The notes under the pieces were generated by a model, which was not told where the DNA came from, did no database searches, and was given only the letters and a program-made list of their open reading frames with translations. A stretch of DNA of 39,709 bases from Chitinophagaceae bacterium (GTDB lineage Bacteria > Bacteroidota > Bacteroidia > Chitinophagales > REEL01). Positions 1-29,079 of the stretch are shown piece after piece (positions within the stretch are counted from its first letter, which is position 1; every line of letters starts with the position of its first letter). The stretch covers positions 1-39,709 of the forward strand of contig REEL01000167.1 of NCBI GenBank assembly GCA_007695095.1. The letters run 5' to 3'. A program made the translations under genes and the position numbers.

Positions 1-2
1 AT

Positions 3-149
3 TTTGAATTATCTGATGAACTCTTAATTAGAAATGGAAGCTTTATTATCAATAATAATCACAGAATTGATGCAAGAAGTGTTTTGTTAGAATCCACAGC
101 TAATGAGTTGCGCTTAGAAAACAATAGTCAATTATATATCGATAATTAA
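3..149 (+). CDS. C-terminal end of an unrecognised protein (5' end outside window)
   Basis: An open frame runs from the window edge to TAA at 147-149 and encodes 48 residues. The visible part is rich in Asn, Leu, Ile and Ser and ends in LENNSQLYIDN. Short alternating hydrophobic/polar stretches and Asn turns fit the last coils of a beta-helix-type surface protein, but this is only a compositional impression. There is no T9SS sorting domain in the visible part. The gene lies upstream of, and on the same strand as, the tail-fibre-like cluster, separated by about 300 bp. Because the start is missing I cannot name a family. The frame could be fortuitous, although it is the only open one at this edge. 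Confidence 0.5.
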   Translation, partial: FELSDELLIRNGSFIINNNHRIDARSVLLESTANELRLENNSQLYIDN

Positions 150-450
150 ATTGAAAAATTGCATATCTAAAATGTAATATGTATTAGATTTTCTAAGGCA
201 GATTCTTATAGAATGAATTACACGATAAATAATTTTATGAGAATAAACCAAATAATTAAAATATCAATTTAACACTTATTGATTTAATTTGGCTGTCATA
301 AAAGCTTACTCTTTATAAATATATAGTTACGCCTAATATTTATGTGTGTTTTCAAAAAATATACTTGATTTAAATGGATTAAGGTCTTAATTTTAGGGTA
401 ATACAATTTTAACATTGTAGTTATATATTAAGAAACTTTAATCCAATTTT
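150..450. other. AT-rich intergenic stretch before the tail-fibre-like cluster
   Basis: About 300 bp without a supportable gene. I found no strong terminator after the partial gene at the left edge. The only recognisable element is a weak promoter-like pair at 365-395, listed separately. Confidence 0.5.
365..395 (+). promoter_or_regulatory. Possible promoter of first tail-fibre-like gene
   Basis: TTG at 365-367 is followed 20 bases later by TAATTTTA (388-395), a partial match to the Bacteroidota -33/-7 pattern TTG-N19/20-TAnnTTTG. The same 20-bp spacing occurs upstream of the other two paralogues. The match is weaker here and lies about 55 bp before the start codon, so the assignment is tentative. 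Confidence 0.3.
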
Positions 451-2973
451 ATGAAAAAAATCTACTTTTTGTCAATTTTTTGTTTATTTGCATTTACCGG
501 TACTATAGCACAAAACGTGGGTGTCGGCACAGATACACCCGGGGCCAGACTAGAAATACAGGGAGAAACAAATACAGCAGCAACTAATGCTTTAGATGTA
601 AATACAGCCGATGGCACCTTAATACTTCGGGTACGTAATGATCAAAGAGTAGGAATAGGAACAACAACTTTAACTGAAAGCTTAAATGTTGGCGGAAATA
701 TTCGGTTTGTAGGAGCTAATAGAAGCATAGGAACATATTCAAATGATGACTTTCATCTTACTTCAAGTAGTCAAATCCGAATGACGGTTAAAAATACCGG
801 TAGAATAGGAATAGGTACAGATAATCCAACTACTTTATTAGATGTTTATGCAGATGATGCTTCACAATCATTTATTCAGGCCAGGAGTAATGTTGGTCGC
901 TTACGTTTTCATGTTGGACCATTTAGAAACTATATACAATCTTCTGAAGCCGGTTCTGCAGATTTCCGAGATTTATATTTTGGCTCTGTCGGAGGAGCAA
1001 ACAATCACATGGTGATTAAAGGGGGGAGTGGAAATGTTGGTATTGGACTTACCAATCCTCAAAGTACATTAGATATAAACGGTGAAATTCGAATCAGAGG
1101 GGGGAATCCCGCAGCAGGCAGAGTTTTAACATCTGATGCCAATGGAAATGCAGTATGGGAAGATATAGGTGCTTTAATAGATGAGGTTGACCCAAGCTGG
1201 GATGGAGATGCAGATATAACCGGAGTTATTGGTAGAGACGGAAGAGTTGGAGTAGGAACAACAAGTCCATCGGCAACTGCTCAGTTTCATTCTGTTCTTA
1301 CAACAGCAGGTTCAAATCAACAGAGAGCCGGATATTTCAGAATAAATTGGGATGGTTCATCAGCACAGGCTACTGCCTTACATGGAAATGCTGTTAAATC
1401 ATCTTCAGAAACTTCCGGGAGAAGTACGGGTGTTTACGGACAAGCAGGAAATGCGACAAATAGATGGAATACGGGTGTTTCAGCTGTTTTACAAGGCAGT
1501 AATGATGGTGCAGCAGTATTAGCCGGTACCACACAAGGATTTTTGGATCATGGATTTTCCGGATCTTTTCAACATCAATATGTATCACCGGCCGGTCAAT
1601 GGGGTATCGTATCTTACAGTGATGTTTATTTTCATGAAGACCACTATGTAATGGGCGATGTTGGTATAGGAACGGCTGAACCGATTGCTTCTTTACACGT
1701 AAAAAGCAATGTATGGAGAGACCATATCGTTATTGACAGAACACAGAATGCTAGTATCGACAGGGTTTTTGGAATCACTCAAACAACTACTCAAGGTGGT
1801 AGAGCCCAGTTTTATTTTGCAGACCCTGACAACGGTACTCCTCACAATTATGCTTTACAAGTACAGGAAGAAACCTCCGGAAGTGGTGCCAGAGTAGGAA
1901 TTGGTAAAGGTGCATTTGACACTTTTTCTGAGGCTTTGGATGTAAATGGCAATATTACCTTATCAAGTGGTGCTAATGGTACTGTTTTTGCCAGAAACTT
2001 AAGGACACATGACGGTTCAAGTTTGTATATAGAAGACGCTAGTGGAAATAGAGGACTTCGATTAAACTCAACAGGAGTTTCTATTTATGAAAGATTAGCT
2101 GTAGGAACAGCAGACCCTACGAATGCACCTAATAACGGATTGTATGTTAACGGAAACACAGGACTTGGAAATACAAATCCACAGGGAAAACTTCACATAA
2201 GCTTGAATAATTCTGCTAATGAACCTGTTATTGTCGATAAAGCAAATGGAACCGGAAATGGTCCTATAATGGAGTGGTATGGGTTTGGAGAAACCCACAG
2301 ACTTCAATTGACCTATACAGACAGTCCTTTTAGATACGAATTTAATACAGACCAAAGTTCAAGAAATATTGCTTTCGCTCCAAACATGAATTTATCTTTA
2401 TTCTTAGCCGCCGGGAATCAAAATGTAGGTATTAAAACAGAAAACCCTACTGCTGATTTAGATATTGATGGTGAAATCAGAATAAGAGGTGGAAACCCTC
2501 AAGCAGGCAGAGTACTTACTTCAGATGCTAATGGTCTAGCTACATGGGAAGTTGCGCCAAGTGGAGGAGGCAGTGGCGGTGATATATGGACATTAAGACT
2601 CGATAACAATATAGGCTCTACTACTGTACCTATAACTGTTACAACTTGGACTAGCGTCCCTCTTGGATACTCACCTACAAACACCGACAGGTATATGATT
2701 GAGTTTAGTAATAACACAAGTAACGGATTAGAAAAAGGTATTTCTATTGTAGGACATGGAAATTTTACTACAACGAATGGTATGAGTGTTGTTTCTTACC
2801 AGGCTTATGATGGCCAGTCAGGCGGTGTATTAAATGTTGCTACCTATGCTATGCAATGGAGAATAAGTGGTTCAAATATTGAATTTAGATTCCCCACTAA
2901 AATTACTCAAGATGGTACATCAAGTGCTACACCTCTTTACGTTAAAAGAATTTGGTCTGCTCCAAAAGAATAA
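451..2973 (+). CDS. Tail-fibre-like secreted protein A (VGIGT repeats)
   Basis: An 840-residue protein with a signal peptide (MKKIYFLSIFCLFAFTGTIA, then Q). It consists of many short modules of the form VGIGT-x2-P-x3-LDV/LHV-x-G, beginning with NVGVGTDTPGARLEIQGE. Such modules are known from phage tail fibres and from large Bacteroidota exported proteins, where they are thought to form trimeric beta shafts. From about residue 710, after a Gly/Ser-rich linker (GGGSGG), the C-terminus is unrelated to its two paralogues and looks like a compact beta domain, possibly a tip or ligand-binding head. There is no T9SS sorting domain and no S74 chaperone. It is the first of three tandem paralogues and shares near-identical DNA tracts with both others. 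The role is inferred: surface or extracellular fibre, target unknown. ATG at 451 fits the signal peptide. Confidence 0.85.
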   Translation: MKKIYFLSIFCLFAFTGTIAQNVGVGTDTPGARLEIQGETNTAATNALDVNTADGTLILRVRNDQRVGIGTTTLTESLNVGGNIRFVGANRSIGTYSNDDFHLTSSSQIRMTVKNTGRIGIGTDNPTTLLDVYADDASQSFIQARSNVGRLRFHVGPFRNYIQSSEAGSADFRDLYFGSVGGANNHMVIKGGSGNVGIGLTNPQSTLDINGEIRIRGGNPAAGRVLTSDANGNAVWEDIGALIDEVDPSWDGDADITGVIGRDGRVGVGTTSPSATAQFHSVLTTAGSNQQRAGYFRINWDGSSAQATALHGNAVKSSSETSGRSTGVYGQAGNATNRWNTGVSAVLQGSNDGAAVLAGTTQGFLDHGFSGSFQHQYVSPAGQWGIVSYSDVYFHEDHYVMGDVGIGTAEPIASLHVKSNVWRDHIVIDRTQNASIDRVFGITQTTTQGGRAQFYFADPDNGTPHNYALQVQEETSGSGARVGIGKGAFDTFSEALDVNGNITLSSGANGTVFARNLRTHDGSSLYIEDASGNRGLRLNSTGVSIYERLAVGTADPTNAPNNGLYVNGNTGLGNTNPQGKLHISLNNSANEPVIVDKANGTGNGPIMEWYGFGETHRLQLTYTDSPFRYEFNTDQSSRNIAFAPNMNLSLFLAAGNQNVGIKTENPTADLDIDGEIRIRGGNPQAGRVLTSDANGLATWEVAPSGGGSGGDIWTLRLDNNIGSTTVPITVTTWTSVPLGYSPTNTDRYMIEFSNNTSNGLEKGISIVGHGNFTTTNGMSVVSYQAYDGQSGGVLNVATYAMQWRISGSNIEFRFPTKITQDGTSSATPLYVKRIWSAPKE
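1155..1553 (+). repeat. 399-bp tract identical to 4213-4611
   Basis: Base-by-base comparison shows no difference over 399 bp between this tract in the first tail-fibre-like gene and 4213-4611 in the second. The flanking homologous DNA carries frequent, mostly silent, differences. This is the signature of recent gene conversion or unequal exchange. Confidence 0.9.
2260..2468 (+). repeat. 209-bp tract nearly identical to 8289-8497
   Basis: Only two differences (at 2294 and 2322) separate this tract from 8289-8497 in the third tail-fibre-like gene, while the DNA on either side is more diverged. It is a second exchange tract, this time between the first and third paralogues. Confidence 0.85.
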
Positions 2974-3002
2974 AATATATTTCACTTCTACAGTTTAAAT
3001 TT

Positions 3003-3030
3003 AAAGCCCGTACTATACGGGCTTTTTTTT
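3003..3030 (+). terminator. Rho-independent terminator after tail-fibre-like gene A
   Basis: A 10-bp perfect stem, AAAGCCCGTA (3003-3012) with TACGGGCTTT (3016-3025), a 3-base loop and a run of eight T (3023-3030), about 30 bp after the stop codon. The GCCCGT core is reused in the terminator of the next paralogue. Confidence 0.9.
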
Positions 3031-3221
3031 AAAATCAAACTGAATTCATTTTAAATAGCTCAATCTGAATCTGAGTACAACTTTAAAAAAAAACTGTTAA
3101 ATTGAACTTTATATATATTTTTAAAATAAACAATAGTGTTGCAAAAAGAATGCTTAGACATTTATATAACAGTGCTATTATTAATTGCAATAAATGCTAT
3201 ATATAAAAATAATAAAAAAAG

Positions 3222-3252
3222 TTGCTTAAGTATGTTTGTGGTGTTAAATTAG
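3222..3252 (+). promoter_or_regulatory. Promoter of tail-fibre-like gene B
   Basis: TTG (3222-3224), 20 bases, then TAAATTAG (3245-3252), one base away from the Bacteroidota -7 element TAnnTTTG. The equivalent pair with the same spacing occurs before the third paralogue (6724-6754). The 72 bp from here to the start codon align without gaps between the two genes, 56 of 72 bases being identical. Confidence 0.6.
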
Positions 3253-3292
3253 ACGTAAATTTTAAAATTTTATCAAATAAAATTACTTGTTT

Positions 3293-6200
3293 ATGAAGAA
3301 GATTTTTACACTTACAATATTATTGGTTACTTCATCCTACTATTTGTTTTCACAAAACGTGGGAGTTGGTACGGATACACCGGGGGCCAGATTAGAAATT
3401 CAGGGTGAGACAAATACGGCAGCAACTAATGCTTTAGATGTTAATAATGCAAACGGTACAGTCATACTTCGGGTACGTAATGATCAAAGAGTTGGTATAG
3501 GAACAACAACTTTAAGTGAAAGATTAAATATTGGCGGTAATATTCGACTGGTAGGAGCTAACAGAAGTATTGGAACATTTTCTAATGATGATTTTCATTT
3601 TCGTTCTAACAGTCAAATAAGAATGACGGTAAAAAATACCGGTAGAATCGGAATTGGCACAGATGCCCCAACCACCTTATTAGATGTTTATGCAGATGAT
3701 GCCTCACAATCATTTATTCAGGCCAGAAGCAATGATGGTCGCTTGCGTTTTCATGTTGGACCATTTAGAAACTATATACAATCTTCTGAAGCCGGTTCTG
3801 CAGATTTTAGAGATTTATATTTTGGTTCTGTTGGAGGAACAAACAATCATATGGTGATTAAAGGGGGTAGCGGAAATGTTGGTATTGGACTTACTTCACC
3901 TGAATCTAAATTACATGTTAAAAGTGGTGCTTTTAGAGATCATTTAATTATTGACAGGACTGATGACTCGGGTATTGATAAAGTTTTTGGTATAACTCCC
4001 AGTAATACAGGAGGAAATTCTGCAAGACTATATTTTTCAAATGTAAATGGTTCTTCAGCTAATGATATTTTAATTTTAAATGACAATGGAAATGTTGGTA
4101 TTGGAGTAACCAATCCTCAAAGCACATTAGATATCGACGGTGAGATTAGAATAAGAGGTGGCAATCCGGCAGCAGGCAGAGTTTTAACATCTGATGCCAA
4201 TGGGAATGCAGAATGGGAAGATATAGGTGCTTTAATAGATGAGGTTGACCCAAGCTGGGATGGAGATGCAGATATAACCGGAGTTATTGGTAGAGACGGA
4301 AGAGTTGGAGTAGGAACAACAAGTCCATCGGCAACTGCTCAGTTTCATTCTGTTCTTACAACAGCAGGTTCAAATCAACAGAGAGCCGGATATTTCAGAA
4401 TAAATTGGGATGGTTCATCAGCACAGGCTACTGCCTTACATGGAAATGCTGTTAAATCATCTTCAGAAACTTCCGGGAGAAGTACGGGTGTTTACGGACA
4501 AGCAGGAAATGCGACAAATAGATGGAATACGGGTGTTTCAGCTGTTTTACAAGGCAGTAATGATGGTGCAGCAGTATTAGCCGGTACCACACAAGGATTT
4601 TTGGATCATGGCTTTTCCGGTTCATTTCAACACCAGTATGTATCACCTGCCGGTCAATGGGGGATCGTATCTTATAGTGATGTTTTTTTTCATGAAGACC
4701 AATATGTAATGGGTGATGTTGGTATAGGAACATCTGATCCGGTTTCATCTTTACATGTAAAAAGTAATTCATGGAGAGACCATCTCGTCATTGACAGAAC
4801 AGATGCAATATCAATTGATAGAATCTTCGGAATTACTCAAACGACCAATAACAGTAGAGCTCAGTTTTATTTTGCTGAACCTGGCAACAGTGCTCCTTAC
4901 AATTATGCCTTTCAAATACAGGAAGATACCTACGGAAGTGGAGCCAGAGTCGGCATTGGTTTGGGTAACATTGAGCCTTCTGAAGCTTTAGTCGTTAATG
5001 GTAATATTGCCTTATCCGGTGATGCAAGCGGTACTGTATTTGCCCGTAACCTAAGAACACATGATGGCGCTAGTTTGTATATGGAAGACGCTAATGGAAA
5101 CAGAGGTTTTCGTTTAAACTCTACCGGAGTTTCTATTTATGAAAGATTAGCTGTAGGGACAGCAGATCCTACAAATGCTCCAAATAATGGTTTATATGTC
5201 AATGGAAACACCGGACTTGGAAATACAAATCCTCAGGGAAAGCTTCATATTAGCTTAAGTAATGTGGCAAATCAGCCTGTAATAATTGATAAAGCAAATG
5301 GAACGGGAAACGGCCCATTAATGGAGTGGTATGGATTTGGAGAAACTCACCGTTTGCAGCTAACCTATAATGGAGATTATGTGTTTAATACTGATGAATC
5401 TATAAGAAATATTCGATTTGCACCAAATAACGTACAAACATTAATGATTAATGGGAATGGTCGAGTTGGTGTTGGCACGATGGCTCCATCCACTGAATTA
5501 GATATTGATGGCCAAATAAGAATAAGAGGTGGGAATCCACAAGCAGGTAGAGTACTTACTTCGGATGCTAATGGTTTAGCTACTTGGGAAGATCCTGCTG
5601 TTGGTGGTAGCTCAAATTGGACTGAGGATGGAGATAATCATTTAAATAATAATAATTCGGGGTCAGTAGCCATAAATACAACAAATCTTTCAGGTGTACA
5701 ATCAAATTTAGTTGTTAGGCAAACTCAAAATCCATTGAATGGAAGTAATGTTATATTAGACAACTTAGCATTAGATCTCAGACAAAATGCTACGAGCAAT
5801 ACTCAGGCAAGTGGAATGAAATTTACTGTAGGTAATGGTAACGCTTATACTGGAACAGCCGCGATTATAGCAGAAAGAACAGGAGGTTGGTCTCAGGGGA
5901 GATTACATTTTGCTGTAAATAATGCAGGGGCATCCGGAAAAGTTGATATTCCAATTTATATGACAATAGATGGTCCTTCCGGAGGAAGAGTTGGTATCGG
6001 AACATTAAACCCTCAGTACCTTCTTCATGTAGATGGTTCGGCCGGAAAACCGGGAGGAGGAAGTTGGACTGCCACTTCAGATGCAAGATTAAAAGAGAAT
6101 GTTTCAAGTTTTAGCAATGGCTTGCATGATGTTCTGAATATTAATCCGGTATTTTATAATTATAATGAGAAAAGTGGTTACGATAGTCAGGTACAATATG

Positions 6201-6478
6201 TTGGAGTTATTGCCCAGGAACTTAAAGAAGTTGCACCCTTTATGGTTGGAGAAACAGAAATAAACGGAGAAACTTTTTATGATGTTAACAATTCTGCCAT
6301 GACCTATATGTTGATTAATGCAGTTAAAGAATTAAATGAAAAAATTGCAGAACTACAAACCGAAAATGAGCGTCTTAAAACTGAAAATAATAATGTTTTA
6401 GAGCTTAATGAAAGATTAACAAAATTAGAAAACCTGATACTTGAAAACTCTCAAAAAGAAGTATCTGCCTCTAACTAA
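3293..6478 (+). CDS. Tail-fibre-like secreted protein B with Peptidase_S74 chaperone domain
   Basis: A 1061-residue protein starting at the ATG at 3293; an in-frame TTG six bases upstream is possible but less likely. It has a signal peptide (MKKIFTLTILLVTSSYYLFS, then Q) and a shaft of VGIGT..P..LDV modules shared with its neighbours, with an extra module around residues 205-280. The C-terminus carries the S74 intramolecular chaperone/autoprotease: TSDARLKENV with the catalytic Ser929 and Lys934 in SDxRxK spacing, then GVIAQELKEV, and finally a coiled coil of repeated ELQTENERLKTEN type. In phage endosialidases and related fibres this domain trimerises the fibre and then cleaves itself off at the Ser. 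By inference protein B matures as a trimer lacking its last 130 or so residues. No T9SS sorting domain is present. Confidence 0.9.
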   Translation: MKKIFTLTILLVTSSYYLFSQNVGVGTDTPGARLEIQGETNTAATNALDVNNANGTVILRVRNDQRVGIGTTTLSERLNIGGNIRLVGANRSIGTFSNDDFHFRSNSQIRMTVKNTGRIGIGTDAPTTLLDVYADDASQSFIQARSNDGRLRFHVGPFRNYIQSSEAGSADFRDLYFGSVGGTNNHMVIKGGSGNVGIGLTSPESKLHVKSGAFRDHLIIDRTDDSGIDKVFGITPSNTGGNSARLYFSNVNGSSANDILILNDNGNVGIGVTNPQSTLDIDGEIRIRGGNPAAGRVLTSDANGNAEWEDIGALIDEVDPSWDGDADITGVIGRDGRVGVGTTSPSATAQFHSVLTTAGSNQQRAGYFRINWDGSSAQATALHGNAVKSSSETSGRSTGVYGQAGNATNRWNTGVSAVLQGSNDGAAVLAGTTQGFLDHGFSGSFQHQYVSPAGQWGIVSYSDVFFHEDQYVMGDVGIGTSDPVSSLHVKSNSWRDHLVIDRTDAISIDRIFGITQTTNNSRAQFYFAEPGNSAPYNYAFQIQEDTYGSGARVGIGLGNIEPSEALVVNGNIALSGDASGTVFARNLRTHDGASLYMEDANGNRGFRLNSTGVSIYERLAVGTADPTNAPNNGLYVNGNTGLGNTNPQGKLHISLSNVANQPVIIDKANGTGNGPLMEWYGFGETHRLQLTYNGDYVFNTDESIRNIRFAPNNVQTLMINGNGRVGVGTMAPSTELDIDGQIRIRGGNPQAGRVLTSDANGLATWEDPAVGGSSNWTEDGDNHLNNNNSGSVAINTTNLSGVQSNLVVRQTQNPLNGSNVILDNLALDLRQNATSNTQASGMKFTVGNGNAYTGTAAIIAERTGGWSQGRLHFAVNNAGASGKVDIPIYMTIDGPSGGRVGIGTLNPQYLLHVDGSAGKPGGGSWTATSDARLKENVSSFSNGLHDVLNINPVFYNYNEKSGYDSQVQYVGVIAQELKEVAPFMVGETEINGETFYDVNNSAMTYMLINAVKELNEKIAELQTENERLKTENNNVLELNERLTKLENLILENSQKEVSASN
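4213..4611 (+). repeat. 399-bp tract identical to 1155-1553
   Basis: Partner copy of the identical tract in the first tail-fibre-like gene. It encodes the module that begins WEDIGALIDEVDPSWDGDAD and runs to the FLDHG segment. Single-base differences resume at both edges. Confidence 0.9.
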
Positions 6479-6500
6479 AAAATGAGTTAATTTAAATTTT

Positions 6501-6527
6501 AAAGCCCGTTTTTAAACGGGCTTTTTT
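6501..6527 (+). terminator. Rho-independent terminator after tail-fibre-like gene B
   Basis: Stem AAAGCCCGTTT (6501-6511) with AAACGGGCTTT (6514-6524) followed by a T run to 6527. The minimal loop implies that the innermost A-T pairs open. It lies just over 20 bp after the stop codon. Confidence 0.88.
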
Positions 6528-6723
6528 ATGTGTTAAATAGTTACATTAACAGCTCTTTTTTTATTTCTTAAATTTGATGTAACGAACGACCATTGCTACT
6601 AAATATGATTTTAATTATATTTTTAAACTAAACCATGTAAAAATAATATAAATATTTATACATTTAATAATTAATAGTATTATTAATTATTAAAATTAAT
6701 ATATATAAAATTTTAAAAAAAAG

Positions 6724-6754
6724 TTGCTTAGGTATGATTAGGGTGCTATTTTAG
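6724..6754 (+). promoter_or_regulatory. Promoter of tail-fibre-like gene C
   Basis: TTG (6724-6726), 20 bases, then TATTTTAG (6747-6754): the same spacing and the same TAnnTTAG form as before gene B. The leader up to the start codon, including a TCAAATAAAATTACTTGTTT block, is also conserved, which implies that promoter and leader were duplicated with the gene or are held under common control. Confidence 0.6.
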
Positions 6755-6794
6755 TATAATGCTTTTAAATTTTTTCAAATAAAATTACTTGTTT

Positions 6795-9431
6795 ATGATT
6801 AAGTATTTTACACTTACATTTTTATTATTAATATCAACCGTTTATTTATTTTCACAAAATGTTGGAGTAGGTACAGATACGCCGGGAGCTCGCTTAGAAA
6901 TTAAGGGAGAAACTAGCACTTCTGCAACCTCAGCTTTAGACGTTACAAATGAAAGTGAAGATTTAATATTACGTGTTAGAAATGACGGCAATGTTGGTAT
7001 TGGAACAGCTAATCCCCAATTTACCTTAGATGTTGCCGGAAGCGGTAGATTTACCGGACAAGTCAGCATACCTTTGTTACCGGTAAATCCGGAACACGCT
7101 GCTTCAAAACAATATGTTGATAATCAGATTGCCGGGCAGGACCTTTGGCAGGAAGATGGCAATGACAATATTTATTATGATGTTGGGAATGTTGCAATAG
7201 GTACTGATGATCCATTATACAAGTTTTACATTGTTTCACAAGAAGATGTTGCAGGTACGAATGGGGAATCAGTAAATATGGAAAACGGCCCCTTTGTAGT
7301 CAGGTCTCATTTTGGTTCTGGCTCCGGCCAAATGACCGGTATAGGATTTACTGTAAGTAGTGTAGATGCAAATGTAGGTGGTGCTATTGCCCTTGAAAGA
7401 ATGGGTTTGCAATCACAATCTAAGATGCATTTTGCAGTGAAATCTGAAAATAATATTACGGCAGATATTCCTATTCGCATGACTTTGGACTATAATGGCA
7501 GATTAGGTATAGGAAACAGAAGTCCGGAATATACATTAGATGTAAGCGGAACCGGCCGGTTCACAGATCAACTTATTATACCTCTTGTCCCAACTGCACC
7601 GGAACATGCAGCTTCAAAAGAATATGTAGATAACCAATTAACTTCAAATACCTTATGGCAAGAGAATGGCAATAACATTTATTATGATGACGGAGATGTG
7701 GGTATTGGTACTGCAGACCCTATATCAGCCTTACATGTAAGAAGTAATAGCTGGAGAGACCATATAGTTATTGACAGAACCGAAAGTGCATTTATTGACA
7801 GAGTCTTCGGAATCACTCAAACGACAAGTGCTAATCGTGCACAATTTTATTTTGCAAATCCAGACGGGAGTTCACCAAATTATGCATTACAAGTACAGGA
7901 AGAAACCTTAGGAAGCGGTGCCAGAGTCGGTATTGGTTTAGGCAGTGTAGTTCCTTCGGAAGCTTTAGATGTTAACGGTAACATTGCCTTATCCGGAGAT
8001 GCAAGCGGTACTGTATTTGCCCGTAACCTAAGAACTCATGATGGCTCAAGTTTGTATATAGAAGATGCTAGTGGAAACAGAGGTCTACGATTAAACTCTA
8101 CCGGAGTTTCTATTTATGAAAGATTAGCTGTAGGAACATCAGATCCTACAAATGCTCAAAACAACGGGCTATATGTTAGCGGAAACACCGGTCTTGGGAA
8201 CATAAACCCTCAGGGTAAACTGCATATAAGTTTAGATAATTCTGCTAATGAACCTGTTATTATTGACAAAGCGAATGGAACCGGAAACGGTCCTATAATG
8301 GAGTGGTATGGGTTTGGAGAAAGCCACAGACTTCAATTGACCTATACAGATAGTCCTTTTAGATACGAATTTAATACAGACCAAAGTTCAAGAAATATTG
8401 CTTTCGCTCCAAACATGAATTTATCTTTATTCTTAGCCGCCGGGAATCAAAATGTAGGTATTAAAACAGAAAACCCTACTGCTGATTTAGATATTGACGG
8501 TGAAATCAGAATAAGGGGAGGAAACCCACAAGTTGGCAGAGTATTAACCTCTGATGCAGATGGTAATGCTACATGGCAAGATCCAAGTGGTGGTGGCGGT
8601 AGTTCAAACTGGACAGAGGATGGGAATGATAATATTTCATATGGTGCAGGAAGTGTAGTAGTTTCACCAGATAATCCTGATATTCAAGCTAATTTTGTGT
8701 CTGCCAATGATGACGATGTTATGCTGCCAAATAATCGGGTAAGCCTAACAGCAACTTATCATGCAGACTTTAGAAGAACAGATTGGTCAAATGGAGAAGG
8801 TAACGGTATAAAGTTTACGCAAGGCGAAAACAATACCTACACAGGAACAGCCGCTATAGTAGCTGAAAGAACAGGATCATGGTCACAGGGTAAATTACAT
8901 TTTGCCGTAAATGATGCCGGTTCTTCAGGAAAGACTGATATTCCAATTCTAATGACACTTGACGGTCCGGGAAATGAAATGGAAGTATTTGGAGATATAA
9001 AAGCAGAGGGTAGGGTTACCGGTACTATGGATCACTTTTCAAGTCATTACCTTTTTAGCACTAACACAGATAACAGATGGCTAGGTTTTAGAAGTACCGG
9101 TACATCGGTAGCTGCTGAACCTAATCATATATATACTAAAATAGCCCCTTTTAATGGCAGACTTAAAAAAATCATTATAAATGCTGAAGATAATACTACC
9201 GGAAGCCCGGCACCAGGGAATACCACCTTTGGGCTACATGTCAATAAAAATCAAACAGCCGTGCAAGAACAAACAGTAAATGTAAATAGCTTTTTAACTA
9301 GCTATGATATGAATTTTACTGCCGGAGCAAGTTTTAACCAGGGGGATCAGATACACATTAGATTTTCCGGATCTGATGAAGCACCCCGAAGAATGATTAT
9401 TACCTGTATTTGGGAATATGATGTAGATTAA
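6795..9431 (+). CDS. Tail-fibre-like secreted protein C (VGIGT repeats)
   Basis: An 878-residue protein starting at the ATG at 6795; an in-frame TTG lies six bases upstream. The signal peptide is MIKYFTLTFLLLISTVYLFS, then Q, followed by NVGVGTDTPGARLEIKGE and VGIGT-type modules. Unlike its neighbours it carries two FTGQVSIPLLP...EHAASKQYVDNQ modules (first near residues 90-120), a type also common in tail-fibre-like proteins. The C-terminal 120 or so residues, after MDHFSSHYLF, form a unique domain with the segment IAPFNGRLKKIIINAE. This resembles tip domains of phage-like fibres, but I cannot name a family. It has no S74 and no T9SS domain. It shares a near-identical tract with the first paralogue. 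Function: probably an extracellular fibre with its own binding tip (inference). Confidence 0.85.
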   Translation: MIKYFTLTFLLLISTVYLFSQNVGVGTDTPGARLEIKGETSTSATSALDVTNESEDLILRVRNDGNVGIGTANPQFTLDVAGSGRFTGQVSIPLLPVNPEHAASKQYVDNQIAGQDLWQEDGNDNIYYDVGNVAIGTDDPLYKFYIVSQEDVAGTNGESVNMENGPFVVRSHFGSGSGQMTGIGFTVSSVDANVGGAIALERMGLQSQSKMHFAVKSENNITADIPIRMTLDYNGRLGIGNRSPEYTLDVSGTGRFTDQLIIPLVPTAPEHAASKEYVDNQLTSNTLWQENGNNIYYDDGDVGIGTADPISALHVRSNSWRDHIVIDRTESAFIDRVFGITQTTSANRAQFYFANPDGSSPNYALQVQEETLGSGARVGIGLGSVVPSEALDVNGNIALSGDASGTVFARNLRTHDGSSLYIEDASGNRGLRLNSTGVSIYERLAVGTSDPTNAQNNGLYVSGNTGLGNINPQGKLHISLDNSANEPVIIDKANGTGNGPIMEWYGFGESHRLQLTYTDSPFRYEFNTDQSSRNIAFAPNMNLSLFLAAGNQNVGIKTENPTADLDIDGEIRIRGGNPQVGRVLTSDADGNATWQDPSGGGGSSNWTEDGNDNISYGAGSVVVSPDNPDIQANFVSANDDDVMLPNNRVSLTATYHADFRRTDWSNGEGNGIKFTQGENNTYTGTAAIVAERTGSWSQGKLHFAVNDAGSSGKTDIPILMTLDGPGNEMEVFGDIKAEGRVTGTMDHFSSHYLFSTNTDNRWLGFRSTGTSVAAEPNHIYTKIAPFNGRLKKIIINAEDNTTGSPAPGNTTFGLHVNKNQTAVQEQTVNVNSFLTSYDMNFTAGASFNQGDQIHIRFSGSDEAPRRMIITCIWEYDVD
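8289..8497 (+). repeat. 209-bp tract nearly identical to 2260-2468
   Basis: Partner copy of the exchange tract shared with the first tail-fibre-like gene (207 of 209 bases identical). It encodes the segment from NGPIMEWYGF to NPTADLDI. Confidence 0.85.
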
Positions 9432-9458
9432 TTATCTCTCAATAAACCATAAATGAAA

Positions 9459-9495
9459 GAGCGGGATTTTAAATTTTTAAAATCTCGCTCCTTTT
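9459..9495. terminator. Terminator shared by convergent genes
   Basis: Inverted repeat GAGCGGGATTTT (9459-9470) with AAAATCTCGCTC (9479-9490), containing one G-U pair, followed by CTTTT on the plus strand. It sits between the end of the third tail-fibre-like gene and the end of the minus-strand FG-GAP gene, so it may serve both. The T-run is better for the plus direction. Confidence 0.7.
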
Positions 9496-9511
9496 ACTTT
9501 TAAAGAAATTA

Positions 9512-11734
9512 CTAGTGGACTATTAATTTTTGAACTTGATTTGTTATAGCATTACGTACTTTAATTAGATACATGCCCGGAGATAAGTCTGAAACATCAA
9601 CTCTGTATACTCTACTATTTACATTTTCAATTTTGCGTAAAAGTTGTCCCTGAATATTAAAAACCTCAATATCAGTGCGATTTGAAATATCTAAATTACT
9701 AAACTCAATATTGATAAAAGTAGATGCCGGGTTCGGATAGATATTTACGATATTTTCTAAATCAACTGTTTGAATTGATTCTTCTACTGAAACTTCCTGA
9801 GTTAGACGGTATAATTGAAGTCCACCGCGCATATTACCTAAAACCATATGCAATTGACCTTCAGGTGAAAACTTAGTAAGAGCAGGAGCTGACCTTTGAC
9901 CCACATTTGTTTGTGAAAAATCTTCAGCTGTAAGATCAAACTTACCCTCTAAAATGCTGTCCGGATTAAAAGCATATAATAATAACCCTCTTGCCTCAGA
10001 ACCTGTTAATACATATTTCTGATTATCTAATTCAATAATCGCAGGACTGGTATATCCATCAATAAACATTGGTTTTCTGGCATCTATTCCACCAAAAAAC
10101 GGATTATCGGGTGTTATATCAAAATCAAAATTAGTCTGTGTGCCTTTATTAAGCATTAACTTAATAGTACCTTGTCTTTCACCTACTAATAAATCATATA
10201 GTCCGTTTCCGTTAATATCATAAAAGTAGGGTGTACTAAACGTCCAGGGATATCTTATCCATTCTTCTTCCTCCAAAACATACACGGCAGGTTCATTTAC
10301 TGCTGATACATTTACAAATAAATGTAAACTCCCGTCCTCATCACCTACAACCAATTCCTTTTTGCCATTATTATTCAGGTCAGCAAAAGCAGGGGAGAGG
10401 TAGACCTTGTTTAACTGACTCAGACTCCCAAAATCTCTGGTAATAAGAGTAAATTCAGGTTCTTCCGGAGTACCGGTGTTTTCATAATAAGTCAATGCTG
10501 CTGTTTTCTCAAAAGGCCCGGTATAATACCCGTTATTCCCAATAATTAAATCTTTTAAACCATTTCCGGATATATCAACAAAGACGGGACGTGACATTTG
10601 TCCGGCATCTATCATATCTCCAACCAGAAAAGACGAAGATTCTTTTTGAAAAATCATTGAGTCTTCATCACCGACATTTAAATACAACCACGCACAATCT
10701 AAAGTTTCAGTAGCGGAGTACATATCCGTTGGAGCTACAATTAAGTCTTTCTTACCATTATTATTGATATCTACCAGAAAATTAGCCGGCATAGTTGGCA
10801 TGTGTATAGGTATGTCATAATTAGGAAAAAGACTATCCTGCTGCACCATTTTAGCTAAATCCGGAGTTCCGCCATTTAACAAAAAAACGATATTACTGTA
10901 TTCAACATCACCCACCAGTAGGTCCTGAACACCATTATTATTAATATCAAGAGCTGTAAGAGTTGACCCGGCATGTCTTCTGTCAGGATAATATTCATCT
11001 ACAGGTGGAAGAAAAAAGCCTACACAGGAATCTACCAAACTAACCCCTTTTGAAGATGCACTTTCATAGAAATCTCCCCAACAATTATCGGCTTGTTCAA
11101 ATATTAAGTTTCCATCACAATTGCCATGCGTATCCATAGAATTGTTTTTAAAATAAAGCACAAACCCACCAAGCATATGAAATGCCAATATGTCTTTAAC
11201 TCCATCTCCATTCACGTCTACAATTGCAGGATAGTCAACTGTAGAAACAAAAATATTTAGGGGGCCTGAAAAACCCTGATACCTCAAATAATCTACATAC
11301 TCAAAATCTAACTTTCCATCTGTATATTTACCTCTGTAATATTCAATTCGATTATTTCCGGAGAAAAACAAGTCCGGAACACCATCACAATTAAAGTCTG
11401 TTAAAATCATCCAATGCTGGACATTTGGGAAATACTCAGCGTATTCCGGAGCATAAGTGTAAGAAATCTCTCCCTCCTGCCCGGAATTTAAAAAGGTTAA
11501 AATCCGATTTCCTGACTTATCAAAAACCACCAAATCATCTATACCATTATTATTTAAATCTGCAGCATTAAATTGCGGATAATTCAATCCCCCCAACCAG
11601 GCTTTATCAATAGTTTGATTGTTTTGATGTACAGGTATATTATGTATTTGCTCAAATACGGGCTGTGCAGTTAAAGCAAATGTATTAAGCAATACAATAA
11701 GGAAAGCTAAAATGTTTTTTTTCATTTTTTTCAT
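9512..11734 (-). CDS. FG-GAP/VCBS-like repeat protein with T9SS sorting domain
   Basis: A 740-residue exported protein. It has a signal peptide (MKKMKKNILAFLIVLLNTFA; a second ATG three codons in is equally usable), then at least seven repeats built around D-x-N-x-N-G-x-x-D-L-h-V-G/F (for example DLNNNGIDDLVVFD, DINNNGVQDLLVGD and DINGNGLYDLLVGE). These are Ca-binding-type loops of a beta-propeller similar to integrin FG-GAP/VCBS blades. The last 75 or so residues form a T9SS type A sorting domain (IYPNPASTFINIEF ... LSPGMYLIKV), which in this phylum directs export across the outer membrane and surface attachment or release. It lies 27 bp downstream of a paralogue on the same strand, so they are probably co-transcribed. 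The ligand is unknown. Aspartate-rich loops suggest that calcium is needed for folding. Confidence 0.88.
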   Translation of the reverse strand: MKKMKKNILAFLIVLLNTFALTAQPVFEQIHNIPVHQNNQTIDKAWLGGLNYPQFNAADLNNNGIDDLVVFDKSGNRILTFLNSGQEGEISYTYAPEYAEYFPNVQHWMILTDFNCDGVPDLFFSGNNRIEYYRGKYTDGKLDFEYVDYLRYQGFSGPLNIFVSTVDYPAIVDVNGDGVKDILAFHMLGGFVLYFKNNSMDTHGNCDGNLIFEQADNCWGDFYESASSKGVSLVDSCVGFFLPPVDEYYPDRRHAGSTLTALDINNNGVQDLLVGDVEYSNIVFLLNGGTPDLAKMVQQDSLFPNYDIPIHMPTMPANFLVDINNNGKKDLIVAPTDMYSATETLDCAWLYLNVGDEDSMIFQKESSSFLVGDMIDAGQMSRPVFVDISGNGLKDLIIGNNGYYTGPFEKTAALTYYENTGTPEEPEFTLITRDFGSLSQLNKVYLSPAFADLNNNGKKELVVGDEDGSLHLFVNVSAVNEPAVYVLEEEEWIRYPWTFSTPYFYDINGNGLYDLLVGERQGTIKLMLNKGTQTNFDFDITPDNPFFGGIDARKPMFIDGYTSPAIIELDNQKYVLTGSEARGLLLYAFNPDSILEGKFDLTAEDFSQTNVGQRSAPALTKFSPEGQLHMVLGNMRGGLQLYRLTQEVSVEESIQTVDLENIVNIYPNPASTFINIEFSNLDISNRTDIEVFNIQGQLLRKIENVNSRVYRVDVSDLSPGMYLIKVRNAITNQVQKLIVH

Positions 11735-11761
11735 TTAAAACCTGAATTAAATCCTCTCCAA

Positions 11762-14008
11762 TTAATCTACTTTTAAAAAGCGGGCACTACCTGATTTTTT
11801 ACCATTTTGCATTTGAATCACATAAATTCCGGGGTTCAAATGTTTGACCGGTATCACAAATGCTTCTTGCAAATAGCCTTCATAATTAAGTATTTTTCGA
11901 CCTTGCATATCAAAAATCTGTATTACAGACTCTATATTTTTTTGGAGACCTTCAGTTTGTAAAACAATAGATTCGGCTGCCGGGTTCGGAAAAACTTTTA
12001 TGGATACTGTCTGGTCAACAATAGAAGGAATAAAGTTCTCCGGATCGATAAATAGGCTGTCTGATGACTGATAAAAAGTTAATCCACCTCTGTAATTGCC
12101 GGATATCATAAAATATCTGTTTTCTTCCGGTTCATAAACAGTAGGAGCAGAGCGGCTTCCTAAATTAATATTCGAGAAATTTTCTGTTATTACCGGGAAA
12201 GAACCGCTTAACAAACTGTCTCTATCCAATTGATATACTTTAATCTTTCCATGATTCGTCCCTAATAAAATGTATTCATTATCAGTAGAATCCAGTCCTG
12301 ACACCCAGGGTATTGAATGACCGGTAAATACACCCGGCTCTCTGGCATCCATTTGACCTAAAAAACTATTTGTGGCATTAACATCAAAAAAGAAATTTTG
12401 AGCAGTGCCAATATTTTCATAATAACGAACATTTCCGTTTCTTTCACCAACTAACAAATCTAATTTACCATTAGCATTCACATCATATAGAAAAGGAGCG
12501 GCAAAAGACCCACCTATGTTTAATAAATTAGAGAGACTTAAAACAAAATTGGCAGGATCTCCGGCCTGAGCAGTATTTTCAAAAAAATGAAGATTCCCAA
12601 AGCGATCCCCAACTATCATATCTTCAACTCCATTCCCGGTTAAATCACCAAATGCCGGATGTAACTGATTGGTAGATAAAATAGATACATTTCCGAAGTC
12701 TTCATCCGCTAACTCATATGCAGGATTATTATTAGTACCCGTATTTACATACAAAGTTAGTGCTGAACGAACATCACCTACATCTACAAATTTTCCGTAG
12801 TTAGCTATAACTAAATCTTTAATACCGTTTCCATTATGATCAAAAAATATAGGAATTGAGCCTTCCCCCACATCAATCATTTCACCTACTAAAAATGAAG
12901 TCGTCCTTAATTCAAATACAGCAGTATCTCCTTCACCTACATTTTCATACATCCACGAACAATTGATGTTTTCAGAGATTTGTAAAGAGTTTGGAGCTAC
13001 TAGTAAATCTTTTTTCCCATTATTATTTACATCTGCTGCAAAAGCCGCTGCAAAATAAGGTATATTTACAGGTACATTGTAAGATGGAAAGTTTATATCC
13101 TGACTTATAATTTTTGCTGAATCAGGTGTTCCGGCATTTACTAAGCGATTAAGCTTTGTTGAAACTATATCTCCTAATATTAAATCTTTTAAGCCATTTC
13201 CATACAAATCAAAGGGGAGAAGAGTAGAACCCGGATGTCTGAAAGACTTAGCCGCCTGAGGAGTTGGAATTAGTGTTCCACAGGTGTCTAACAATAAAAC
13301 TTCTTCCTGAAATTCACTTTCAAAAATATTTCCCCAGCAGTCATCTACTTTTTTGAAAATTAAAGTATCGCCACACATACCTAATTCAGACGAAAGGTTT
13401 TCATAATAATGAATATAGCCTCCAAAAACGTCAAATGCCAATACATCTATATCTCCGTCATTATTGATATCTGCAAAGCCCGGAATGTCTATTTGAGTTA
13501 CAAAAATATTGGCTATGCCACTACTACCAGTAGTTTGATATTTTAAATCGTCCCAAACCTCAAAAGTTAAAAAATCATCTTCATAAAAACCGCGATACAC
13601 TCTGATGCTTGCTAACTGTGAGGATATAATATCAGGTATCCCATTGCATGCCATATCTTTCATCAACATCCAGTGTCTTAGTTGACTTGGAAATCTTTCA
13701 GCATATTCCGGAGCATAAGTGTAAGAAATGCTATCCGGTATACCATTATTTATGAATGTAAGAACTTTGAATCCTGTACGATCAAAAATAACCAGATCAT
13801 TTATGCCATTATTGTTTAAATCTGCTTCTGAAAATTGTGGATTATTCAAGCCACCAATCCAGGGTGTTTCAAGTATATGGCCGTTATTTGAAACAGGAAC
13901 GTCATAAATACTTTCAAAAAAAGGTATGCTTTGAGCTCTTAAATCACTAATTGGTGAAAACAGTAACATCATTAATAAAAATGAAAGGTACACTTTGAAA
14001 TCATTCAT
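11762..14008 (-). CDS. FG-GAP/VCBS-like repeat protein with T9SS sorting domain (paralogue)
   Basis: A 748-residue paralogue of the downstream gene, with matching order throughout: signal peptide (MNDFKVYLSFLLMMLLFSPI, with a likely cut after RAQ), a conserved first repeat (DLNNNGINDLVIFDRTG), then Asp-loop repeats such as DINNDGDIDVLAFD, DVNNNGKKDLLVAP and DVNANGKLDLLVGE. It ends in a T9SS type A sorting domain (VFPNPAAESIVLQ ... LNPGIYVIQM). It is the first gene of a probable two-gene unit, with about 146 bp separating it from the divergent antiporter gene; I see no convincing promoter in that interval. As with its neighbour, the fold is predicted to be a large beta-propeller on the cell surface or secreted. 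Function unknown. Confidence 0.87.
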   Translation of the reverse strand: MNDFKVYLSFLLMMLLFSPISDLRAQSIPFFESIYDVPVSNNGHILETPWIGGLNNPQFSEADLNNNGINDLVIFDRTGFKVLTFINNGIPDSISYTYAPEYAERFPSQLRHWMLMKDMACNGIPDIISSQLASIRVYRGFYEDDFLTFEVWDDLKYQTTGSSGIANIFVTQIDIPGFADINNDGDIDVLAFDVFGGYIHYYENLSSELGMCGDTLIFKKVDDCWGNIFESEFQEEVLLLDTCGTLIPTPQAAKSFRHPGSTLLPFDLYGNGLKDLILGDIVSTKLNRLVNAGTPDSAKIISQDINFPSYNVPVNIPYFAAAFAADVNNNGKKDLLVAPNSLQISENINCSWMYENVGEGDTAVFELRTTSFLVGEMIDVGEGSIPIFFDHNGNGIKDLVIANYGKFVDVGDVRSALTLYVNTGTNNNPAYELADEDFGNVSILSTNQLHPAFGDLTGNGVEDMIVGDRFGNLHFFENTAQAGDPANFVLSLSNLLNIGGSFAAPFLYDVNANGKLDLLVGERNGNVRYYENIGTAQNFFFDVNATNSFLGQMDAREPGVFTGHSIPWVSGLDSTDNEYILLGTNHGKIKVYQLDRDSLLSGSFPVITENFSNINLGSRSAPTVYEPEENRYFMISGNYRGGLTFYQSSDSLFIDPENFIPSIVDQTVSIKVFPNPAAESIVLQTEGLQKNIESVIQIFDMQGRKILNYEGYLQEAFVIPVKHLNPGIYVIQMQNGKKSGSARFLKVD

Positions 14009-25573: not shown

Positions 25574-27643
25574 CTACATAGGATTGTAAATTTTAACGGC
25601 CTTTTCCATTATTTCCTCCGGGTTGAGGGTCATGGTTTTTGTTTGTTTATTTATGTACAATTCCATTTGATCTGTATAATGTGGGCTTTCCGGTCTGGAA
25701 GAACTTCCAAATGGATGTAAGGTTTCTACTTCAGGGTATTCATTTTCCTTAGAAAATCTGACAAACATGGTATATGCATCACCTATCATAATATCAAATT
25801 CTCCCCTTTCATTTTTTACTCCATAGCGGGCAGTTAATACATCCGGGAAGCCTGAAACCGGTAAACTTTTTTCACCTCTTACGTGTCTTTGCAGAACTCC
25901 CAGAGGAACTTCTGTATTGTCAAAATGAGTAATTAAGTGATTTTGAGCATAGTATAAGGCTTCAACATAAAGTTCTTCATCAATGCTTATACCGGATAAA
26001 AAAGCAGCATCATCTAAATCTAATTTGTCAAAAATGTATTGAAATGTCAGCAGCATTAAGCTGGCTCCTGTGCTTTCTAAATCTGCTACTCCATTCCAGC
26101 TTTGTATTTGCTTAATAGTTCCGGAAACTCGTGGAAATCTTGATGGAGGTAAATCAAAAATAGGTAATAAACTCTCCAAAAAAACAGAATTTTCAGGAAA
26201 GCTTTCATCCCATTTAATTGCCTTAAACTCCTCAAAATTTATTTTTTCGTATTTCGCAATGATTTCTTTAAACCTATAAGCTCTATTGTTATCATTAATT
26301 CGAAAACCCATATCAGGACTGAAATTTTCAGCCTGTAGATTTTCTTCAGCACAGCTTGCAGAAAAAGGAGAATTATTCACATTAAACAAAAATCCGCAAA
26401 CCGGATTTAATAATTGCGGTAATTCATCTACAGTATATACTTCATTCCAAAAACTTGCGGAAGTATTACCGGGCAGAACTTTTGTATAATCAAAACCCTC
26501 ATTCCTTTTTGGTATCAGTCCGGTATTCAAATAAAATATATTATCATCTCGATCCGCATACACTATATTGAATCTTGGCAGTGCATTCATGGACAAAGCA
26601 TCGTAAAATTCATTAAAATCATTAGCTAGATTCATTCTGTACCATTGCTCTATTGCTCGAATATCATTGTATAGTGCATATCGAATGGCAAAATACCCCT
26701 GATTTGTTTTAAAAACCGGACCATGTATACTTTCGTAAGTAACTCTTCGAACCGGTATGCTAATTTTACCTATAAGCGCTACCCTCAACCAAATTGGATG
26801 CTTAACCAATTCCAACCATTTATCGTCAAACCTATATTTATACTTTTTTGAAGGATGCATTTCCAGCTGATACACATCAACCAAATTGAGTCCATTCCAG
26901 GTATGAGCCCAACCTAAATTTTTATTGGTGCCGGAATAAACATTAACTCCTCCGGGAAATGTTCCTCCTAGAATATTTAGACCTTCTTCAGAGTTTAAGT
27001 AAACTTCATACCAGGAAAAGCTGCCCTCCATAGGGGTGTGAGGGTTTACAGCTAAATATGTACTACCATCCTCAGACATATTGCTATTTACAGCATAGGT
27101 ATTTGAGCCTATATTTTGTGGAAGATCTACTAAATTTTCCTCAATTACATCTTGAATATAATTATGCACACCCGTAACTATAGTTAATGTAAACATTGAA
27201 CTTACAAGAGCATCCTGTGGACCTATCGGAAATAATTTTCGGTGTACTACCTGATTAGGGTTAGCTGCGGCATAAGCGTTTAAACCCGCTGCATATGCTT
27301 TAAGATAATCTTTAAACTCTGCAGACAAGTCCGTTTCAAACTTCTTTTCAACAGTTTCCCTAATTCTACAGGCATGCAGAAGAAAATCTCTTACGGCCCC
27401 TTCCCTGCCCTTTATTCTTCCCATAAAGCCCTTAGCAGTAAGGTATACTTCCTGTATGGTATAAAAGTCATCTTCAGCATGAGCCCATGCCAATCCAAAA
27501 GCGGCTTCTGCATTAGTTTTGGTAAAGATATGAGGCACTCCCCACTGATCTCTTACAATGGTAATGTTTTCGGGATTTATTTCAGCGTGAAGAGTGATTG
27601 TTCCGGAAAATAAAATTGCTAATAAAGTTGAAAAATGTTTCAT
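25574..27643 (-). CDS. Penicillin-acylase-family Ntn hydrolase
   Basis: A 689-residue exported amidase of the penicillin acylase family, which also includes acyl-homoserine-lactone acylases. Signal peptide MKHFSTLLAILFSGTITLHA. The N-terminal chain carries IVRDQWGVPHIFTKTNAEAAFG and a spacer region; the autocatalytic cleavage point is QNIGS-NTYAVN, so Ser180 becomes the N-terminal nucleophile of the beta chain. Further family segments are YLAVNPHTPMEGSFSWYEVY and GTFPGGVNVYSGTNKNLGWA. By family knowledge the enzyme cleaves an amide bond in an acylated small molecule in the periplasm; the substrate cannot be deduced. It begins 8 bp after the stop of the serine hydrolase gene, a tight coupling that suggests related substrates. 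Confidence 0.92.
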   Translation of the reverse strand: MKHFSTLLAILFSGTITLHAEINPENITIVRDQWGVPHIFTKTNAEAAFGLAWAHAEDDFYTIQEVYLTAKGFMGRIKGREGAVRDFLLHACRIRETVEKKFETDLSAEFKDYLKAYAAGLNAYAAANPNQVVHRKLFPIGPQDALVSSMFTLTIVTGVHNYIQDVIEENLVDLPQNIGSNTYAVNSNMSEDGSTYLAVNPHTPMEGSFSWYEVYLNSEEGLNILGGTFPGGVNVYSGTNKNLGWAHTWNGLNLVDVYQLEMHPSKKYKYRFDDKWLELVKHPIWLRVALIGKISIPVRRVTYESIHGPVFKTNQGYFAIRYALYNDIRAIEQWYRMNLANDFNEFYDALSMNALPRFNIVYADRDDNIFYLNTGLIPKRNEGFDYTKVLPGNTSASFWNEVYTVDELPQLLNPVCGFLFNVNNSPFSASCAEENLQAENFSPDMGFRINDNNRAYRFKEIIAKYEKINFEEFKAIKWDESFPENSVFLESLLPIFDLPPSRFPRVSGTIKQIQSWNGVADLESTGASLMLLTFQYIFDKLDLDDAAFLSGISIDEELYVEALYYAQNHLITHFDNTEVPLGVLQRHVRGEKSLPVSGFPDVLTARYGVKNERGEFDIMIGDAYTMFVRFSKENEYPEVETLHPFGSSSRPESPHYTDQMELYINKQTKTMTLNPEEIMEKAVKIYNPM

Positions 27644-27651
27644 AGTAAATG

Positions 27652-29079
27652 TTAATCGACCTCTACTATAAATTCTACATCCTTTGAGAAATATTCAATT
27701 GAACGGTTTCTGTCCAGAAATAAACCATTTACTTCACCTTCTATATAATCTATAAATAATTGAATGTTTTCTTTACGATTTCTGTAATTTAACATACTTT
27801 CTTTTTCAAGTGGAATCGTAACAAAACCATCGGTAATTAACAATCTGTTATTCACTATTTTAATTTCAAAGTTTATACCTGAGTGGTTTTTATAATTTCC
27901 GGCCAAAAAGTTTTTATCTATAAAAAAAGGCTCTTCGTCATTTTTTTCATTTACAATCAAAAAAGCTAATTTTGAAATAGAATTACCCCATTTGATTCCG
28001 GAACGTTTATTTCCCTGTCTGACAATAATCAAATCATGCTCCGGATTTATGTATAAAACCTGTCCTGCATATCCACCCGCAAATAAATCCCTCTTTTCAA
28101 AAAGTGGCCTGTCAATATAGGTATCCAACCACCATGATTTATTATAATTATAATATTGTCCAAAAACAGTGTCTCTCAAAAAAGAGTTTTCTACCCATTT
28201 TTCAGGAATTATCTGAGTTCCCTCCCAGTTTCCTTTATTAATATATAAACGACCAATTTTAGCTAAATCTCTTGCTCTGGCAACTAATCCGCCATATGCC
28301 AATGGGGTGCCATCAGGGCTGTCAAGCATCATAGCTGCTGTATATTCCATTCCTAGCGGTTTCCAAATCTTTTCTTCTATATACTTAGCTAATGGCCTTC
28401 CGGTAGCTTGCTCCAAAACCATCCCCAAAATTAAAGTCGAAACAGATTTATATTCAAAAACTTCGCCGGGATTATGCTTAAGCTTAATCTTATCAACATA
28501 TGCCTTTTGATTGTTATGATAATACATTCCTAAAAGTAAATGCATAGTGGTATAGTCTGAAAAATTTAATCCGTCGGTCATGTTTAACAAGTGCATTACT
28601 GTAATGGCATCCCGGCCATCTTCTTTATATGCCGGAATAAAATCAGATACTTTTTGGTTAATATCTGTAATATACCCTTCTTCAATAGCAATACCGACTA
28701 AAGCAGAAACCAATGATTTAGTAATTGAAAAAACTTGAGCTGCAGTAGACTGCCTGTAATTATGAAAATAGTTTTCATAAAGAATGCTGTCATTTTTTAT
28801 TATTAAAAAACTAACCGTACCTGTACGTCTTAAAAATGTTTCAAAATCTTGTCTTTTGCTTACGTGCTTACCGGTTACCCAGTCTGACGGACTTGGAAGA
28901 AGCAAGGCTTGATCACTCTGTGGAAAAATAAAAGCCGTATCCGGTTTGTCTATTATATCTAAATCAAAAACTAAATAATCCGTTATACCGGGAATGTTAT
29001 GTTTAGCTATCCTGTAAACATTATTACAGGAAGCTAAACTTAACAAAACCATGAAGGATATAACTAATTTAATTTTCAT
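27652..29079 (-). CDS. Serine hydrolase of the beta-lactamase (class C/AmpC-like) family
   Basis: A 475-residue lipoprotein (signal ending LASC, lipid Cys18). The serine beta-lactamase/penicillin-binding fold is shown by SITK (Ser118, Lys121) in VFSITKSLVSALVGIAIEEG, the second motif Y210-K-S in GEVFEYKSVSTLILGMVLEQ (Lys replacing the usual Ser of YSN) and AGGYAGQVLYINPEHDLIIV downstream. An extra domain of about 100 residues follows the catalytic part. Most such proteins are esterases or peptidases, not drug-inactivating enzymes, and nothing here supports a resistance call. It is the first gene of the minus-strand set; an inverted repeat lies 49 bp upstream of its start. Confidence 0.88.
   Translation of the reverse strand: MKIKLVISFMVLLSLASCNNVYRIAKHNIPGITDYLVFDLDIIDKPDTAFIFPQSDQALLLPSPSDWVTGKHVSKRQDFETFLRRTGTVSFLIIKNDSILYENYFHNYRQSTAAQVFSITKSLVSALVGIAIEEGYITDINQKVSDFIPAYKEDGRDAITVMHLLNMTDGLNFSDYTTMHLLLGMYYHNNQKAYVDKIKLKHNPGEVFEYKSVSTLILGMVLEQATGRPLAKYIEEKIWKPLGMEYTAAMMLDSPDGTPLAYGGLVARARDLAKIGRLYINKGNWEGTQIIPEKWVENSFLRDTVFGQYYNYNKSWWLDTYIDRPLFEKRDLFAGGYAGQVLYINPEHDLIIVRQGNKRSGIKWGNSISKLAFLIVNEKNDEEPFFIDKNFLAGNYKNHSGINFEIKIVNNRLLITDGFVTIPLEKESMLNYRNRKENIQLFIDYIEGEVNGLFLDRNRSIEYFSKDVEFIVEVD

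Follow-up and report, generated by a model that had tools for sequence, protein, structure and literature searches.

Three tandem fibre genes with shared shafts and unlike ends in a Chitinophagaceae bacterium: a probable Bacteroidota variant of the mosaic adhesive fibre design

In the predator Bdellovibrio bacteriovorus, mosaic adhesive trimer (MAT) fibres have been described as the repertoire for prey recognition (Caulton et al., 2024; PMC10769870). They are displayed on the surface and consist of a conserved base, a trimeric beta shaft, and either S74 or non-S74 ends; in all 21 MATs a beta-rich N-terminal domain of ~130 aa directly follows the signal peptide (PMC10769870). MAT tips include TNF-like and lectin types, TNF-like tips being found in Bd2439 and in Bd2734, for whose tip the best match named is 2WQ4, and glycan binding is known for one member of the family (PMC10769870). 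Tip swapping is mentioned in the same paper, and further tips may serve other bacteria (PMC10769870).

A tandem of three genes in a Chitinophagaceae bacterium is a Bacteroidota variant of this already described design. The window analysed here has 39,709 nucleotides and comprises contig C167 in full; the source genome measures 3.49 Mb in 186 contigs. Genes A (451–2973; 840 aa), B (3293–6478; 1061 aa), and C (6795–9431; 878 aa) all lie on the + strand, where the first-pass annotation had located them. A consists of a signal peptide (aa 1–20), a shaft, and a non-S74 end; B of a signal peptide, a shaft with one extra module, an S74 chaperone, and a coiled coil; and C of a signal peptide, different proximal modules, a shared distal shaft, and a non-S74 end. 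It is fairly likely that the three genes encode long beta-helical fibres of the cell surface, probably homotrimers, which function in the manner of the Bdellovibrio MATs, with ends that vary and shafts that are exchanged. Trimerization, a surface position, adhesion, cleavage, and simultaneous expression are probable properties of the three fibres.

B and C probably begin with the ATGs at 3293 and 6795, two codons downstream of the TTG at which the mechanically called ORFs begin. The signal peptides, judged by eye, are ~20 residues long in all three proteins and end in A/S before Q, followed by NVGVGTDTPGARLEI, so that the common signal peptides and common first module claimed earlier are borne out. 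Bacteroidota substrates of signal peptidase I are expected to be cleaved before Gln (the Q-rule; PMC5837995), and Sec export with cleavage before Gln would be the first step for A, B, and C. Each gene is followed on the + strand by a terminator-like hairpin (3003–3025 after A, 6501–6524 after B, and 9459–9490 after C). In the alignment the leader of C (6717–6794, + strand) is clearly similar to that of B (~3215–3292) and may hold a promoter of its own, while the leader of A is less similar to these two than they are to each other. With their own leaders and hairpins, A, B, and C are apparently separate transcription units; they could be co-expressed from these putative promoters.

The shafts are built of modules that would be linked via VGxGTxxPxxxL capping loops, of which there are four copies in A, eight in B, and five in C, against a mean of 0.02–0.04 in shuffled proteins. 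The first-pass annotation had most shaft modules shared among the three proteins. This holds for A and B, whose shafts are collinear over nearly their full length, B having one additional module at ~aa 202–275 that confirms the insertion or loss of modules. For C it holds in the distal part only: C agrees with A and B over its ~70 N-terminal residues and again over its distal half, while its proximal half is a module set of its own with two HAASK(Q/E)YVDNQ hinges. The three proteins diverge past the GRVLTSDANGxATW module, B and C having one further module in common before their ends. Beyond the last shared modules no convincing alignment and no common family was found among the C-termini, in agreement with the earlier claim that each protein ends differently.

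The shaft repeat conforms to the consensus given for MAT capping loops, V-G-(x)-G/N-x-x-x-P-x-x-x-L, the printed form being read here with one position more than its text shows. In a phmmer search of PDB sequences B matches Bd2133 (8OND, E 2e-7) and Bd3182 (8OJN/8ONB/8ONC, E 4.9e-7). Further likenesses to the MATs are the signal peptide, the long beta shaft with VGxGxxxPxxxL loops, the occurrence of S74 and non-S74 ends together, conserved shafts with diversified ends, and several members per genome. In contrast to the MATs, A, B, and C begin directly with a capping-loop module instead of the ~130-aa N-terminal domain, belong to a Bacteroidota host with no evidence of predation, and show large recent exchange tracts between paralogues. 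The NCBIfam profile for the defining domain, NF053851 (Bdello_MAT_N), matches none of the three proteins at E<=1; they are therefore MAT-like by anatomy and, by this definition, not members of the MAT family. Across the source genome this profile matches at contigs C96, C41, and C29 only, always under the cut-off. The match on C96 is an S74 fibre (C96_580; L032:2794–4536) whose score of 53.7 bits falls short of the cut-off, which is 60; its N-terminal domain resembles a Bdellovibrio fibre protein (L081, E 3e-7) and in a local comparison is unrelated to A, B, and C.

The exchange of modules between copies, proposed in the first-pass annotation, is real and is most visible in two exact tracts. 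A run of 399 nt in A (1155–1553, + strand) is identical to B 4213–4611 (+ strand), third codon positions included, while the remaining aligned DNA of the two genes is 85.6% identical; under uniform divergence such a run has a log10 P of about -25. A second run of 146 nt in A (2323–2468, + strand) is identical to C 8352–8497 (+ strand), with 81.9% identity outside the tract and a log10 P of about -10.5 under the same assumption. Both tracts are most simply read as the result of recent gene conversion among the paralogues, which would diversify in this way, shaft modules being swapped by conversion while different ends are kept. The GC content gives no hint that the ends were recently acquired.

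In a metagenome-derived contig a 399-nt repeat has misassembly as another possible source, and the tandem arrangement and the exact tracts could in part be an assembly artefact in which strain alleles or repeats were mis-joined. The window makes up one entire contig in a draft of 186 pieces, its left edge lies just 450 nt before A, and the 399-nt exact repeat exceeds the length of short reads. We judge an artefact improbable in view of the leader, hairpin, and different end that each gene has of its own, the divergence of C over half its shaft, and the quality of the assembly (completeness 98.56, contamination 0.72). Tandem fibre arrays are also seen in further genomes, some of them on megabase-size contigs.

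The end of B is a Peptidase_S74 domain (PF13884; E 1.2e-12, 48.4 bits against a curated cut-off of 22), which is absent from A and C. The intramolecular chaperone itself spans 6077–6247 on the + strand (E 9.8e-14), with the SDxxxK dyad S929/K934 at 6077–6094, and a heptad-like helix accompanies it; the first-pass description of an S74 chaperone with a coiled coil is thus correct. The same chaperone region occurs in a homologous form in the eukaryotic myelin regulatory factor, MYRF (7DC3; E 3.5e-6 to B, phmmer), which differs in being a membrane-bound transcription factor without a fibre shaft. Characterized S74 homologues cleave themselves at the serine of SDxxxK, and the S74 domain of Bd3182 cuts itself off (PMC10769870). 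By analogy B should be cleaved at S929, so that the chaperone would fold B and then be removed, and mature B should end in a shaft-type beta-helix. The S74 domain had also been counted as the third tip of the set, a claim that does not stand: it is an intramolecular chaperone, predicted from its homologues to be self-cleaving (PMC10769870), and not a binding tip.

The ends of A and C would be independently folding beta domains, probably glycan- or surface-binding, and it is this C-terminal part that would vary within the set. The end of A (2575–2970, + strand; ~132 aa) is an orphan domain; no significant relative turned up among phages and viral contigs, in Pfam, or in the genomes searched from the phylum (395) and from the order (398), and the whole gene A is without relatives in named genomes. 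Four weak matches at the phylum level are chance, being unrelated proteins or alignments that read through stop codons. A structure model of this end from the single sequence is beta-rich at low confidence (mean pLDDT 48.5), at which the lack of a match in the fold search is meaningless. The end of C (9027–9428, + strand; ~134 aa) has one distant relative, which makes up the C-terminal ~95 residues of a fibre of 465 aa in G008, a genome from another family of the same order (E 1.4e-4). This fibre starts with VGIGNSNPEEKLDV and has a collagen-like shaft; the presence of the same kind of end on an unrelated shaft directly supports the exchange of ends. The model of the end of C is likewise of low confidence (pLDDT 56.2), and the top hits of this model in Foldseek are trimers of the TNF-like group, the lectins 2WQ4 and PLTL among them, which provides a lead to a possible TNF-like fold. 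Neither end has a counterpart in the phage and viral collections or a convincing match by sequence in the PDB, and the weak Pfam names Tsi3, NPV_P10, DUF5627, and K319L PKD were rejected as below the cut-off or chance.

A different function for these ends would follow if A, B, and C had a structural role, as fibres in a matrix, a sheath, or a cell coat, in which the ends just cap or trimerize the shaft and recognize nothing. Some S74-type or collagen-like fibres could be purely structural, no ligand is known for the three proteins, the end of A has no relatives, and the models of the two ends are of poor quality. This account is nonetheless unlikely, because the ends differ while exchange keeps the shafts nearly identical, and conservation is what one would expect of a simple cap. 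The recurrence of the end of C on an unrelated shaft also argues against a cap, as does its weak TNF-like lead, which points to a group containing lectins, among them 2WQ4, the closest match of the Bd2734 tip.

Interchangeable binding ends had been proposed to follow the logic of phage tail-fibre switching. The part of this proposal that describes a fibre locus with different ends is upheld, and the same logic is already documented in the Bdellovibrio MATs; for switching itself the locus gives no indication. The three genes have one orientation with hairpins between them, long high-identity inverted repeats are absent from window positions 1–9800, there is no recombinase or invertase among the annotated window genes, and each end is present in a single copy in the source genome. 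An invertible switch was rejected on these grounds.

The likeness to phage long tail fibres with S74 domains, such as the L-shaped fibre of T5 and the K1F endosialidase, consists of the S74 chaperone, the beta-helix, and modular tips, but A, B, and C are Sec-exported, are not accompanied by virion genes, and have no invertible tip cassettes. The locus as the remnant of a prophage or of an extracellular contractile injection system, with retained tail fibres, would account for matches to PHROG families of tail fibres (B to phrog_9942 at E 1.1e-33) and for S74 domains, which are known in phages. That origin is highly improbable given the Sec signal peptides on all three proteins, the chromosomal housekeeping genes gyrA and msrA near the array, several similar loci in the source genome, and the absence of either end from any phage or viral contig searched. 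No phage structural genes are found among the annotated neighbours in the window, which extends 450 nt to the left of A, and the locus appears to be cellular, as had been thought. Elsewhere in the window, penicillin-amidase-family and beta-lactamase-family genes adjoin each other at 25574–29079.

S74 domains were found in 107 of the 395 sampled Bacteroidota genomes, frequently as tandem arrays, a distribution that also speaks against a phage remnant. Because of this frequency, and because fibre shafts of the A/B/C type occur across many phyla, an S74-type fibre protein is of a common kind. Bacteroidota S74 proteins named 'tail fibre domain-containing' (PF13884) combine the shaft motif with an S74 end as B does and often stand in tandem; compared with these arrays, the one in the window has a single S74 member and two members with unrelated non-S74 ends. 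It is this S74/non-S74 mixture, with visible exchange, that is special to the window array.

Besides A, B, and C, the source genome encodes six or more fibre-like proteins whose ends are of other kinds. Contig C86 (L030:5115–11022) carries two S74 fibre genes, one of them with collagen repeats, with a gene between them for a protein of 901 aa that lacks a sorting domain; the genes are on one strand and closely spaced. C96_718 has a weak dermatopontin-like end, C96_580 combines the MAT-N-like domain with S74, and C137_1193 combines a weak F5/8 type C match with a YadA head and S74. C88_530 (L034:1–1591), which is cut by the contig end, consists mostly of 'STAWG.(N/D)N' beta-roll repeats with YadA-head and ice-binding-like matches.

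The absence of a T9SS sorting domain from A, B, and C, noted in the first-pass annotation, is confirmed by profile searches, in which the C-terminal domain (CTD) profiles TIGR04183 and PF18962 have no match in the three proteins. SprA and T9SS substrates are encoded by the source genome and identify it as Bacteroidota, and C96_580 has a gene for a protein with a T9SS-type CTD (L032:4587–5123) 50 nt downstream. Such neighbours were counted in 48 S74 regions, eight of them picked as tandem arrays and 40 by hit position, and in control regions of the same contigs at a distance of 60 kb. A T9SS-type CTD was found in 22 of 97 ORFs directly adjoining S74 genes versus 6 of 360 control ORFs (Fisher p 2.5e-11), a comparison that for the eight array regions is no independent test, since they include those where the pattern was first noticed, and in which several of the 48 regions overlap or share a genome (L130 and L181 are the same locus). 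The domain is present in 2 of 161 ORFs at least three positions from an S74 gene, and in 2 of 63 ORFs adjoining the largest ORF of control regions. All 22 neighbours are on the fibre strand, spread over 19 regions, and the ten checked against the curated TIGR04183 cut-off all pass; one partner (L177) has a start that resembles a fibre. Besides the example in the source genome, small neighbours of this type are found in L128, L129, L132, L134, L135, L143, L151, L163, L166, L169, L170, L172, L176, L179, and others. They have a few recurrent head types, e.g., 'sGG...LsfsiGE' and 'v.e.GsxieV.tGadicAd'. Under the terms tried, the literature gave nothing on T9SS partners of S74 fibres.

As a lead from this association, the T9SS-sorted neighbours may export or anchor S74 fibres. 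More tentatively, and with considerable doubt, MAT-like or S74 fibres of Bacteroidota might be exported or held at the surface via a small adjacent T9SS-sorted partner that bears the address in place of the fibre, the partner of the base-less A, B, and C being encoded elsewhere or beyond the contig edge. The window array has no such partner in view, with the contig edge upstream and two convergent FG-GAP proteins downstream. The latter are adjacent FG-GAP repeat proteins (9512–14008) that carry T9SS sorting domains. Upstream of the array, the contig edge cuts a 48-aa ORF tail at 1–149 (...LRLENNSQLYIDN*), which has no resemblance to a T9SS sorting domain.

A tandem set in a Bacteroidota genome that combines a MAT-type shaft and swapped ends with no MAT base suggests that fibres with exchangeable tips are a design of more general use on bacterial surfaces. 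The locus exposes ongoing exchange of shafts between paralogues, and with it the question of export becomes testable, namely by which route proteins that lack a T9SS signal reach the surface in a phylum whose S74 fibre genes are repeatedly found next to genes for small T9SS-sorted proteins.
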